Shown here one piece after another: positions 30,386-39,639 of a DNA stretch of 64,000 nucleotides. The DNA is from Haloarcula marismortui ATCC 43049 (GTDB lineage: Archaea > Halobacteriota > Halobacteria > Halobacteriales > Haloarculaceae): NCBI RefSeq assembly GCF_000011085.1, contig NC_006396.1, forward strand, positions 1,922,001-1,986,000. Reading direction: 5' to 3'. How positions within the stretch are numbered: position 1 is the first letter of the stretch; each line of letters opens with the position of its first letter. The notes beneath the pieces were generated by a model. It saw only the letters and a program-made list of their open reading frames with translations. It made no database searches and was not told the DNA's origin. Both the position numbers and the translations under genes were made by a program.

Positions 30386-31147
30386 CTAGGCGACACTGCG
30401 CGATTCGATGACGATGCCGGTTCCCGAGCGGACCGAGAACCCGATGGTGTCACCGACCTGTTCGCCCATGCCGGCAAATCGGAGAACGTTGATCTGCCGG
30501 CGCACGTCGTTCCCGACCTCGATCATCTCCAGTTCGATGAACACGTCAGCGATGGCCCGGAACGGGCCGATAGCCTCCTCGTCCAGCGTCGACGGGTCGA
30601 CAGTGAGCATGATGCATTTGCCCTGTGAGATGACGTCCCGGAAGTATGAGATAACTTCTAGGGCGGCCTGTCGCTCCTCGTTTTGCCGGACGAGAGCTTC
30701 GAACTTGGGGTCGTTCCTGAGGATAGCGTCGAAGGTATCGATGACGACGACATCGGCGTCCCACATCACCTCGGCCTCCATCAGCCGCTTGAGGAGTTCC
30801 TTCCGGTCGGTCTGGTCGTCTCCGCCGGTGAGGGCGTTCGATTCGCCGATGTCGGCGTGCAGGAACAACACGTCCTCATCGAGGATGTGGTCGACCATGT
30901 CATACGACAGCGAGTGCATCTGGTCGAGGAAGCTCCCAACAGTGAGTTCCGTCGAGAGGTAGGTCACTTCGTGGCCCTCTTCACAGAGGCCGTAGGTGAA
31001 CCGCTGGCTCATGGCGGATTTGCCGGCGCCGTAGTCACCCTCGACGAGGATGATGCTGCCGGGTGGGATACCGCCGCCCAGTTCCTTGTTCAGCCGGTCG
31101 TGATCGTCCAGTCCGAGCGAGAATAGGTCAGTACTTGCGATACTCAT
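30386..31147 (-). CDS. arlH: Archaellum ATP-binding protein ArlH (FlaH)
   Basis: 253 residues, a RecA/KaiC-like ATPase-fold protein that binds ATP and forms a ring with ArlI and ArlCE at the motor base. Walker A is GDYGAGKS at 37-44, and a Walker B-like [10 protein letters not shown] lies near 130. Its ATG overlaps the arlG stop in an ATGA (31144-31147), so translation is coupled. Related in fold to the KaiC-like gene at 40491 but clearly distinct. Confidence 0.94.
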
Positions 31148-31596
31148 GTGTTGAACTCGAACACCTCCTCGTCGCCGTTGACGATGAGCTTGAGCCGGTG
31201 GTCGCCGCCGCTGAGGTTGTCGTTGATGTCGATGCGGACGACCTCACCGGGCCGCCAGCTGTTGCCACCGTTTGGCTCCAGCGTTACCGTGTAATCACTG
31301 GCGAAGGTCCCGTCAACGAACACATCTACTTGCCCGGGGACCGGAGCCAACGTCTCTGAACCGGTGTTTTTGACGTGAACCGTGATTGTGTTCGCGCCGC
31401 TGTCGTAGATGGTGTCGCTACCGCTGTCGGAAATGATTTCCACGTCGGTTCGGACGTCGCTGCTCACGTCCAACCCCTGTTCCGAAACAGCGTTGCTCAG
31501 TTCGCCGATACTGCTCGTAAAGACGCCAGCCACGCTCGCGGCGATAGCCATCGACGCGATGAACAGAATCAGGTGTGAGACGGAGACGCTTGCCAT
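31144..31596 (-). CDS. arlG: Archaellum protein ArlG (FlaG)
   Basis: 150 residues: an N-terminal hydrophobic helix (about 7-28) resembling an archaellin-type anchor, then a beta-sandwich domain outside the membrane. ArlG with ArlF links the motor to the S-layer and acts as a stator component. Placed between arlF and arlH as in other haloarchaea. No signal-peptidase site is obvious. Confidence 0.88.
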
Positions 31597-36044: not shown

Positions 36045-36192
36045 GCCTATCAAGCCTACATATCGTGATGAGTTAGATAAAGGTGTCCCGTAAATTATCG
36101 CGTGTGATATCGGTGGGACCCGAAACCGGGCAACTGCGTTCCGATTCTGACCGCGATGACAGGTACAACGCCTTCGTGTGCTGGTGCCTGCT

Positions 36193-36756
36193 TTAGAACT
36201 TCGCACCGTCTCGTGCTTCGATAGCCTCAACGAGGTCTGCGATACTGTCGTCCGGCGAGAGACCGGTCGACTGGACCATCCGCTTGAAGCTCTCTGGCGG
36301 GTGTTTGACTGGGACGTTGGACTCCGAGAGCAGAATGCCGAGCACGTTCTCGACCGATGTCGACCCGTCCATCTGCCGGCCGTACCAGAGCATGAAACTC
36401 TCGAACGCGGTGATGATGTCGTTGGACACAACCTGTTGCTGGTCAACGTTCCCGTCAAACTTCGCGGTCACATCGAACCCATACCGGCTGTTTGATTTCG
36501 CCATTTGCTCGGCGAGCCACTCGTGAACGTTCGCGTCGGTAAACTCAGGAGCGTCGGGCTCGGGAGCTGGGTCCGGGTCAGGGGTGGAGTCAGACGAAAC
36601 CTGATTGCCGTAGGAATCGTTGGTTCGAACATCAGAGGAGACGACATACCGTCCTTCGTCGATCTCTGTGACGTGCTCGTCATCCGCGATGTCTAATTCT
36701 TCCGGAGAGAGGATCTTACCGTCCTCTGGATTCGGTTCGTCTGACCCCGAGGCCAT
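36193..36756 (-). CDS. Conserved haloarchaeal taxis-cluster protein, DUF7500-like
   Basis: 187 residues, acidic, no membrane segment. The first 50 residues contain KILSPEELDI and EIDEGRYVVSSD blocks, then a Pro/Asp/Glu linker, then a helical domain from about residue 90 (NVHEWLAEQMAKSNSRYGFD). I remember a similar family (DUF7500) beside haloarchaeal che genes; unchecked. First gene upstream of cheY, leftward, 148 bp away, and divergent from the archaellin-like gene, so a taxis role is plausible but unproven. Confidence 0.75.
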   Translation of the reverse strand: MASGSDEPNPEDGKILSPEELDIADDEHVTEIDEGRYVVSSDVRTNDSYGNQVSSDSTPDPDPAPEPDAPEFTDANVHEWLAEQMAKSNSRYGFDVTAKFDGNVDQQQVVSNDIITAFESFMLWYGRQMDGSTSVENVLGILLSESNVPVKHPPESFKRMVQSTGLSPDDSIADLVEAIEARDGAKF

Positions 36757-36845
36757 GCAGATACATGAGAGATGGGATGATATAATTCCGTCGCTGCTCA
36801 GGGGTAGCCGACACGGTTTTGACTGGTCGTGGATACGTTCACAGT

Positions 36846-37442
36846 GTGAGCGAACCGAACCGGCGAGAGGAGCGAGCGACCGTTAAACGGCGGGCACAGA
36901 GCTCTCTCGGGTCGATTATCCTCCTGATTGCGGCGCTCCTGATCGCCGCAGCCACGGCTGGCGTACTGTTCGAAGTAGTCGGTGGGTTTCAGTCCGACGC
37001 GGCCACGGCCAGCGACAAAAGCGCCGACCGGGTCATTGCGCGGACCGAAGTCGTCGGGAGCACTGGCCACGTTAACACGACTGGACAGAGCATCGAAGCG
37101 GTGACGCTCGTGGTGAAGCGAGCGGAAGGGGGCGGGAACATGGACCTTAGCGATGTTGTCGTTGGGACGACAATCGGGAGCGGGGCCGACGCGCCGGTGG
37201 GTTCCGCTGCTGAGGTTACGGTTACCCCACTCAGAGATGACGACGACTCACTCTCGCGGGACATCCTGAACGACGACGGCGACCGGGCAGCCTTGCGTAT
37301 CGACCTCGCGGCACTGACAGGGGTCGAGCTCCAGCCGAGCGAAAGCGGCACGATACGGTTGCTGTCACCTGACGGCGCGACGACAACGGTCAGAGTCTCG
37401 GTCCCATCGTCGCTCAACGGGAAGACAACGGTCCCGCTCTGA
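36846..37442 (+). CDS. Archaellin-like protein, divergent short paralogue
   Basis: 198 residues from a GTG. The N-terminus has a basic segment (KRRAQ), then a long hydrophobic helix (about 24-47, SIILLIAALLIAAATAGVLF), as in archaellins. The middle and C-terminal parts follow the archaellin pattern too: a GSxGADAPVG-like stretch, DDDDSLSRDILNDDGDRAAL, and a VRVSVPSSLNGKTTV ending matching [15 protein letters not shown] at the end of ArlB. Before the helix it has RRA-Q instead of the usual RG-Q, so processing by the preflagellin peptidase is uncertain. Possibly a minor or adaptor archaellin. Runs opposite to arlB. Confidence 0.78.
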   Translation: MSEPNRREERATVKRRAQSSLGSIILLIAALLIAAATAGVLFEVVGGFQSDAATASDKSADRVIARTEVVGSTGHVNTTGQSIEAVTLVVKRAEGGGNMDLSDVVVGTTIGSGADAPVGSAAEVTVTPLRDDDDSLSRDILNDDGDRAALRIDLAALTGVELQPSESGTIRLLSPDGATTTVRVSVPSSLNGKTTVPL

Positions 37443-37752
37443 CGGCCGGCAGTAGCAGCCGACCGCCCGAACAGTGTGAGCCGGCTCACGGATACCGATG
37501 CGGAGAGGCGTGCTGACCCGAGTTCTTGACGCCCGACTTCGACCAGTAGACAGCCATACCGCGTGGCGTTTGGCCGTCTGTGCATCCGGCGGCTGCTACA
37601 ATCGTCTCTCCCGAGTCTGGTCGGGAGGAAATATGGTGTGTCACACGATAACTGCGAGCCGACGCAGTTCGCTATGTCGCCGTTGACGAACGTACCGACG
37701 CACAGAAACAGACCGCACAGCGACAGAAACAGTGTGAAACACTGACCTGTGT

Positions 37753-37904
37753 ATGAGTTCGATCCGTCCAACCGAAGCACGTCGCAAATGTATCGGGCTC
37801 TCGGCGTGGGCTTCTTGTCACTGTCTGGATGTTTGGACGGGAATGTGAAACTGACACGACGTAACAGAATCGAGGTCGTACCTGCAAAAAGGTGCATGCA
37901 GTAG
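37753..37904 (+). pseudogene. Possible frameshifted start of a Tat lipoprotein
   Basis: From the ATG at 37753 one frame gives a short start with an EARRK Tat-like motif and then ends. A frame offset by one base, from 37788, gives RALGVGFLSLSGCLDGN, a textbook haloarchaeal lipobox, then stops at 37904. Joining the two by one indel gives a normal Tat lipoprotein leader, so this may be the remnant of a lost gene. The rest of the protein is missing. Short enough that chance cannot be excluded. Confidence 0.4.
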
Positions 37905-37993
37905 AGCTTCGCTTACATGATAGAACCGAACACAGAGCATAGTCGACGCCCCCACGAGATAGCTGTCGCTGGTCGCGGGTGGAAAACAGAGAG

Positions 37994-38016
37994 AAAAGTT
38001 CTGCAAGCGAAAGAAC
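37994..38016 (-). terminator. Terminator-like hairpin after arlB
   Basis: In the leftward direction GTTCT and AGAAC pair around a 9-base loop, then TTTT follows, 9 bp past the arlB stop. It matches an intrinsic-type terminator for the archaellin mRNA, which is highly expressed in motile cells. Confidence 0.5.
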
Positions 38017-38024
38017 GGCTCGCG

Positions 38025-39389
38025 TTAGACCTGCACTGCGGTTTCGCCCGATAGCGTGTTGGGCACGCTAACGCGGATTTCGGTGGTCGCGCCGGACTCT
38101 GTCGTCACTTCCAGCGTCATCGTTTCGCCGGTTTCGAGCGTCCCGGGGTTGACGATAATGCGGAAGCGGTCAGCGTCGGTCATCACCGGGAGCGAGTCAT
38201 CCTCGTCTTGGACGGCCTGTACACCGAACGTCTCACCTTCGGTGGCACTATTGCCGCCGTAGGTCAGGGTGTTCGTGCCACTGGGGCCGATTGTGGTGAT
38301 AGTCGTCTGCTCGAGATTGATCTGGTCCGCGCCGGAGCCCTTAATTGCGATGACGCTAATCTCAGAGACACCACCACCGCCAGTGCTGTAGTCCTCGTTT
38401 ACGAGTAGCACCTGAGAGGTCGTGAGTGAAACTTCAGAGCTAGCTAGACCCGTAATTTGGCCAGAACTTGTGGTTATAATTTGGTCTCCGTCGTCATTCT
38501 CTAGCGTGAGTGCGCTAGCAGTATCAATTTGATTATCGAATGGGTTGAATGACACACTGTCGCCAGTATTTTCATTCGTAATCCGAACTTCATCATTTGC
38601 AATAACGTCGAACGTCACGTCATCGCCCTGATTGATCGTGATCGTACTTGAAGCTACAGTGATGTCAGAACTTCCTGACGTGGCACTGAGCGTTTCACCG
38701 TCACTAACAATCACGTCATCACTGTTACTATCGTCACCGGTCAGGGGGAGGTACTGTTCAGTGTTTTGACTGTTCTCTAGGTCAGCACTGACCGCGCTAG
38801 TGGACTCGCCATCGTTAAGTGTAACTGAGGTGATATCAACCTCGCCGTTGACCGGGTCTTCATAAGTCCGTTGGAACGTTACAGTGTCATCGTTAGTATC
38901 AGAGTCGCCCGCAAGTGAGAGAGTATCGGTACCCTCAGACACGGTAGTTGATGCTCCGGTCTCAGTGTTTGTAACAGAGATTGTGCTGGTACTTTCCCGG
39001 GTGAATCGAATTTCGTCACCCTGCTCAACGGCAACTTCACCATCCTGCCCGTCAAGGTTTGCGAGGTTACTATCACCTGCACTGGTTGAACTGACAGTTA
39101 GCGTTGATCCTGAGTCAATCGCGAACTGAATGGTTTCTCCTTCAACAATGATCGTATCCGTCGGGCCCGAACCCGCCACAGACCCAATCTTCGACGCTAC
39201 TTGAATCTGGTTGGTCACTTGGTCGCTACTTTCTTGGCCGGTCTGTTCAGCTGAACTCTGCAGGAAGCCAGCAGTGTTGATCAGGACGCCTGCCGCAATC
39301 GCGGCGACAAGCACCATCGCGATGAACACGATGAGGGTCCCGATCCCCACTTGGCCTCGGTCTTCTGGATTTGTAATGCGTTCGAACAT
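38025..39389 (-). CDS. arlB: Major archaellin ArlB (FlaB), very large form
   Basis: 454 residues, more than twice the usual archaellin length of about 200. The N-terminal signal is [12 protein letters not shown] with cleavage expected after Gly12, then the conserved [20 protein letters not shown] helix that forms the filament core. Residues up to about 74 and from about 327 to the end match archaellins; in between lie about 250 extra Ser/Thr/Asp-rich residues coded by DNA of lower GC. Large archaellins are known in Haloarcula. The start at 39389 is set by the family N-terminus. Confidence 0.92.
38415..39165. other. AT-richer insert inside arlB
   Basis: The DNA for about residues 75-325 of ArlB has visibly lower GC than either end of the gene or the neighbours (long stretches close to even base use). 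It encodes beta-rich, Ser/Thr/Asp repeats such as [20 protein letters not shown]. It probably forms the surface-exposed domain of the filament and may have been exchanged between strains. Confidence 0.6.
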
Positions 39390-39639
39390 GTGTAGTCCGG
39401 GTCGCTCTGACCCTATCGGAACGAGTACGTACCACCTAATAACATCATCCCTCAAAATTTTATTCTTGATAACGGTGGTTTCAGCCGGTTTAGACGGTAC
39501 TTCTCAATAGTATTCAGAGTCGATTTGAACCGATTTCACGGTCGTATAGCGATCGTCGGAAAACCCGGAATCAGTATTGAAAATTAATTTTGCAAGCTGA
39601 AAGCGGCCGGTCGGCCGGTCGGGTCACACGCAGGGACAG

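Follow-up and report, generated by a model that had tools for sequence, protein, structure and literature searches.

flaB2 of Haloarcula marismortui encodes a conserved archaellin with a divergent N-terminal helix and belongs to an exchanged archaellin cassette

Why does the archaellum locus of Haloarcula marismortui ATCC 43049, which encodes a long major archaellin, also carry a second archaellin-like gene on the opposite strand? We addressed this question in a 64,000-nucleotide stretch of the genome (NC_006396.1, positions 1,922,001 to 1,986,000; hereafter the window). The species has four archaellin genes, and its filaments consist of FlaA2 with some FlaB, or of FlaB alone when pNG100 is lacking; FlaB and FlaA2 are two salinity-specific archaellins, termed ecoparalogues (PMC6528647). 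By position and description, the gene studied here, which we call ARLX, is the published flaB2 (WP_049938970.1), which adjoins flaB on the opposite strand of chromosome I. Its existence was thus already known, and PMC6528647 adds only that its function is unknown; no experiments on flaB2 were found in the literature searched. New here are its selection, helix divergence, distribution and cassette exchange.

ARLX (36846..37442, + strand) encodes a precursor of 198 residues with a predicted mature form of 181 residues starting at Q18, and its GTG start codon is kept in both orthologues (G004 and G027). An earlier note, made from the sequence alone, had described an archaellin-like protein and proposed a search with the Arch_flagellin profile. 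That search supported the description: PF01917 (Pfam) matched with 65.6 bits (E=8.7e-18, cut-off 29.5) over essentially the whole profile (positions 1-161 of 162), and the TIGR02537 archaellin/pilin N-terminus profile with 22.2 bits (cut-off 20). No pilin family, as an adhesion pilin would be expected to match, was found among the Pfam matches. The C-terminal VRVSVPSSLNGKTTV aligns with its 15-residue counterpart in ArlB, as the earlier note had observed. Modeled with AF2 (pLDDT 81, pTM 0.65), the mature protein comprises an N-terminal helix and a β-domain; confidence is low at the helix end, where most of residues 24-45 fall under a pLDDT of 50. The best PDB match of the model is the Halobacterium salinarum archaellum 9eq7 (E=4e-13, TM 0.69), further matches include Methanococcus 5z1l and Methanocaldococcus 7ofq, and the top 15 are all archaellum filaments or archaellins, in agreement with an archaellin fold. 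At the sequence level, mature residues 52-179 match residues 327-452 of the 454-residue flagellin in cryo-EM entry 9v95. Since that flagellin is identical to the ArlB of the window over 454 residues, ARLX resembles FlaB without its large insert. A relationship to the ArlF/ArlG stator proteins was considered and rejected: ARLX scores 35.8 bits against NCBIfam ArlG, where the cut-off is 110, and both stator genes are present elsewhere, arlG as a separate gene at 31144-31596. ARLX is an intact gene of the archaellin family with the predicted fold of that family.

The gene order is as the earlier note had read it. ARLX lies tail-to-tail with arlB (flaB; 38025..39389, − strand), the gene of the long major archaellin of 454 residues, with 582 bp between the stop codons, and head-to-head with a DUF7500 gene (36193..36756, − strand; PF24332, E=3.5e-64), whose allele is specific to the cassette delimited below. 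Beyond these neighbors lie arlJ to arlCE, cheD, cheC and cheY on one side, and DUF7521, a winged-helix gene, a RecA-like gene, cheW, cheB and cheA on the other. arlB itself has conserved ends (above 85% DNA identity in three species) and a hypervariable middle, most of which is about 45-60% identical. The GC content of this middle part is low (about 46-51%), the pattern to be expected of an insert that is exposed at the surface and diversifying.

The earlier note had singled out RRA-Q, in place of RG-Q, before the helix of ARLX. The site is indeed there: the predicted class III signal peptide of 17 residues (36846..36896, + strand) ends in RRA, with a putative prepilin-peptidase site at A17|Q18 that reads RRA|QSS instead of RG|QVG. 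As an oddity it is weak, in that R-A-Q-S fits the published FlaFind motif [KRDE][GA][ALIFQMVED][ILMVTAS] followed by a hydrophobic helix, as in class III signals, and Ala at −1 is also present in two ordinary archaellins. Gly at both −1 and +3 is a common archaellin trait rather than a strict requirement; ARLX has Ala at −1 and Ser at +3, departing from positions important for FlaK in Methanococcus, and given these residues its processing might be poor.

Judged by sequence, the helix is the stronger anomaly and RRA-Q a minor one. The statement that ARLX keeps the archaellin N-terminal helix was wrong in detail: 15 of the 33 residues (36897..36995, + strand) agree with the archaellin consensus, so that the view of RRA-Q as the only oddity of the protein was discarded. 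All 33 consensus residues are matched by 68 of 78 sampled archaellins and 31-32 by five more; two genes from a different genus (G141 and G142) match 20-21. The sample was collected by sequence similarity, chiefly within Haloarculaceae and one further family, so its counts do not stand for Halobacteria as a whole. With 15 of 33, ARLX falls outside the group of major Haloarcula arl-locus archaellins and their near-invariant helix. Among the three ARLX orthologues, 32 of the 33 helix residues are identical, an L/V exchange being the sole difference. In 391 genomes of the class, a sample that left out G141 and G142, a DNA pattern for the A-Q-S helix matched nothing but the three ARLX genes and a single gene in G418.

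The upstream regions differ as well. The head-to-head intergenic or promoter region between DUF7500 and ARLX (36757..36845) contains a 22-nt TGATATAATTCCGTCGCTGCTC identical in three species. Upstream of arlB lies the dyad GGGTCAGAGCGACCC (39399..39413, − strand), which is conserved in most Haloarcula arl-locus archaellin genes. The full block of these loci, found for example also at L045, L039 and L048, consists of TTATCA, ATAATTTG and TATTATTA and closes with a GGGTC-N5-GACCC dyad whose distance to the ATG is about 10 nt. In ten aligned examples the dyad folds as a 5-bp hairpin, with one pair changed on both sides; this compensatory pair is that of pNG100 flaA2. The dyad could possibly act as a 5'-UTR hairpin or as an operator. 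Block and dyad are absent upstream of all three ARLX genes, and the block is absent at leuS-linked archaellins too. The missing block suggests that ARLX is under different control, which is no proof of low expression. An invertible phase switch was rejected, as ARLX has no flanking inverted repeats of at least 14 nt and the same orientation in all three species.

Orthologues of ARLX in two more Haloarcula species share 86% (G004) and 84% (G027) protein identity with it and occupy the same place in the same orientation, which answers the gene-order comparison suggested in the earlier note. Because the adjoining intergenic DNA is only about 45-65% identical between species, this conservation means that the open reading frame is not a product of chance. 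NG86 dN/dS was 0.13-0.17 for the whole gene across the three species and 0.009-0.016 for residues 15-63, the helix region, in the two comparisons where it was computable; synonymous sites are strongly diverged and residues fixed. ARLX is thus under purifying selection, although for its history the record is thin, consisting of three species that share one cassette.

ARLX and a long chromosomal ArlB (454-474 residues) occur together in three of 32 Haloarcula genomes and are both absent from the other 29; that is, ARLX is found only with a long ArlB (3/3 versus 0/29). The leuS-linked chromosomal archaellin is absent from the three ARLX genomes and present in G024 and G030. Plasmid-borne copies of ARLX were not found in the plasmid collection. 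Ten other Haloarcula loci have one or two archaellins of about 200 residues, co-oriented, before DUF7500, and nine of them have two extra genes between DUF7500 and cheY. H. marismortui (G000), G004 and G027 instead have the long ArlB and the inverted ARLX, without the two genes. These genes (about 150 and 660 residues, no Pfam match) were located at L045:10195-12698, with similar pairs in L037, L039, L041, L043, L046-L048, L050 and L137-L139; neither the ARLX cassette nor G016 contains them.

The exchanged cassette, comprising DUF7500, ARLX and long arlB, spans 3.5 kb between cheY and DUF7521 (36128..39639). The closest relative by flanking genes, G024, is about 95% identical in DNA through most of the window and carries a different archaellin set inside this interval: BLAST identity is 96.6% up to 36127 and 94.8% from 39640, whereas the stretch in between aligns only in patches of 74-77%. 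A six-gene tree joins G000 with G024 (100/100), whereas the DUF7500 tree joins G000 with G004 and G027 (100/100). The identity break and the tree conflict together indicate that the set was replaced as a 3.5-kb block, or that two old alleles persist across species. By its position ARLX could be an inverted ordinary arlB2, but the tree, in which a very long stem sets it apart from the other archaellins, gives no support to an origin from a local arlB2.

Damaged archaellin genes were also observed. On chromosome II of H. marismortui, an archaellin frame with three internal stops (G000:C9:18691-19299, L002), which has intact relatives in G023 and G029, is probably the published truncated flaA1. 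The arl-locus archaellins at G003:C23:341723-343490 and G008:C5:285548-287157 seem split, by frameshift, stop or assembly error.

We propose, at roughly even odds (probability about 0.5), that ARLX functions as a specialised archaellin, is less abundant than the major ones and serves at the base, at the tip or as a partner rather than as a bulk subunit. The sequence is compatible with the minor archaellin, cap or base adaptor that the earlier note had listed, and we favour these roles. PibD is predicted to cut the precursor at RRA|Q, after which the helix would enter the archaellum pathway, the protein presumably being exported by the same route. Because this helix differs from the near-invariant helix of ArlB and FlaA2, ARLX most likely stays out of the bulk of the filament and would be placed at the base, at the tip or as a partner of long ArlB, roles that look alike from sequence and model. 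Long ArlB, DUF7500 and ARLX would be inherited together, in a single exchangeable cassette. Filaments are reported to be made of FlaA2 and FlaB (PMC6528647), and ARLX is in no PDB entry, though filaments of both FlaB and FlaA2 are present there (from its length and similarity, 9v96 probably represents FlaA2); we count this for a minor role, and a silent gene would give the same picture.

The main rival is that ARLX is a further ecoparalogue and, under other conditions, makes up a filament by itself or supplies much of one. Salinity-specific FlaB and FlaA2 set the precedent in this very species (PMC6528647), the upstream region of ARLX is its own, its predicted fold is complete, and the genomes that carry it are without the leuS-linked archaellin. 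We nevertheless regard this most serious alternative as unlikely: the ARLX helix is very unlike that of every major archaellin sampled, and the shared arl-locus upstream block is missing, though the leuS-linked archaellins lack that block too. Ranked behind it, and in our view rather doubtful, is the idea of an alternative archaellum type that consists of ~450-residue archaellins and has ARLX as its dedicated piece at the base or tip. Lacking the large insert and having a helix of its own, ARLX would start, anchor or cap such filaments, and Haloarcula species would exchange long ArlB, ARLX and DUF7500 together as a surface-type cassette. If this were true, exchange would perhaps change the salinity range or allow escape from archaellum-binding viruses.

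Alternatively, ARLX may have departed from the archaellum system and now contribute, as subunit or adaptor, to a different surface structure that is either membrane-anchored or similar to an adhesion pilus. Its Ala at −1 is reminiscent of pilin sites, for instance RAVS in Haloferax PilA, the helix departs from the archaellin consensus, and G418 has a comparable A|QSG archaellin-like gene away from any arl locus. Yet only archaellin profiles match ARLX convincingly, and over its full length, with no pilin family, and in all three species the gene is embedded in the arl/che locus, which makes this reading improbable. Its convergence with arlB and divergence from DUF7500, repeated in the three species, would also suit a regulator acting by position, whose run-out transcript or shared head-to-head promoter tunes arlB or DUF7500. 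Selection clearly acts on the protein, however, with fixed residues among diverged synonymous sites, and conservation is poor across the 582 bp that separate ARLX from arlB, so that we give such a regulator very little chance. Decay does occur in the family, as the archaellin broken by stops on contig C9 of the same genome illustrates. That ARLX is itself a relic or decaying duplicate, as the earlier note had allowed, is scarcely tenable and already contradicted, because in three species its reading frame is free of stops and frameshifts and its dN/dS lies far below 1 (about 0.01 in the helix).

The case bears on the reasons for which many archaea have more than one archaellin: here a short conserved archaellin, its helix changed, occurs strictly together with a long major one, and the two pass between species as a unit. 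The cassette shows that an archaellin set can be replaced as a block, with the conserved motor and chemotaxis genes left in place. With solved filament structures and a strain lacking pNG100 at hand, the role of an extra archaellin is directly testable in H. marismortui.

Among known systems, FlaB and FlaA2 resemble ARLX in belonging to the archaellin family and in residing in the same cell, where the same assembly machine is expected to handle them. In contrast to these proteins of 454-463 residues, with their large insert and invariant helix, ARLX has no insert and a different helix, signal site and upstream region. Halorubrum FlaB1 and FlaB2 (PMC7349177), like ARLX and ArlB, are two strongly diverged archaellins in one locus, one of them often long. 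The Halorubrum pair, however, is encoded in one operon, is present in comparable amounts in the filament and is more conserved in the N-terminal region, whereas ARLX and ArlB lie on opposite strands and the helix itself has diverged. The A|QSG archaellins of G141, G142 and G418 share with ARLX the Ala at −1, the Ser at +2 and an I-x-L-I-A helix, and those of G141 and G142 are nearest to it in the tree (five-row set, SH-aLRT 95), where long branches leave the kinship unsure; unlike ARLX, they are co-oriented in G141 and G142 and outside the arl locus in G418. Rare archaellins with a changed helix, Ala at −1 and Ser at +2 were noted at L063 (2329-2850, − strand), L075 (2333-2860, − strand) and L146 (9375-10013, + strand), two inside arl loci of another genus and one outside. 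By analogy, the hook-region archaellins of Methanococcus and Halobacterium (PMC4307647) offer a precedent for a special archaellin at the filament base, a place that ARLX may likewise occupy.
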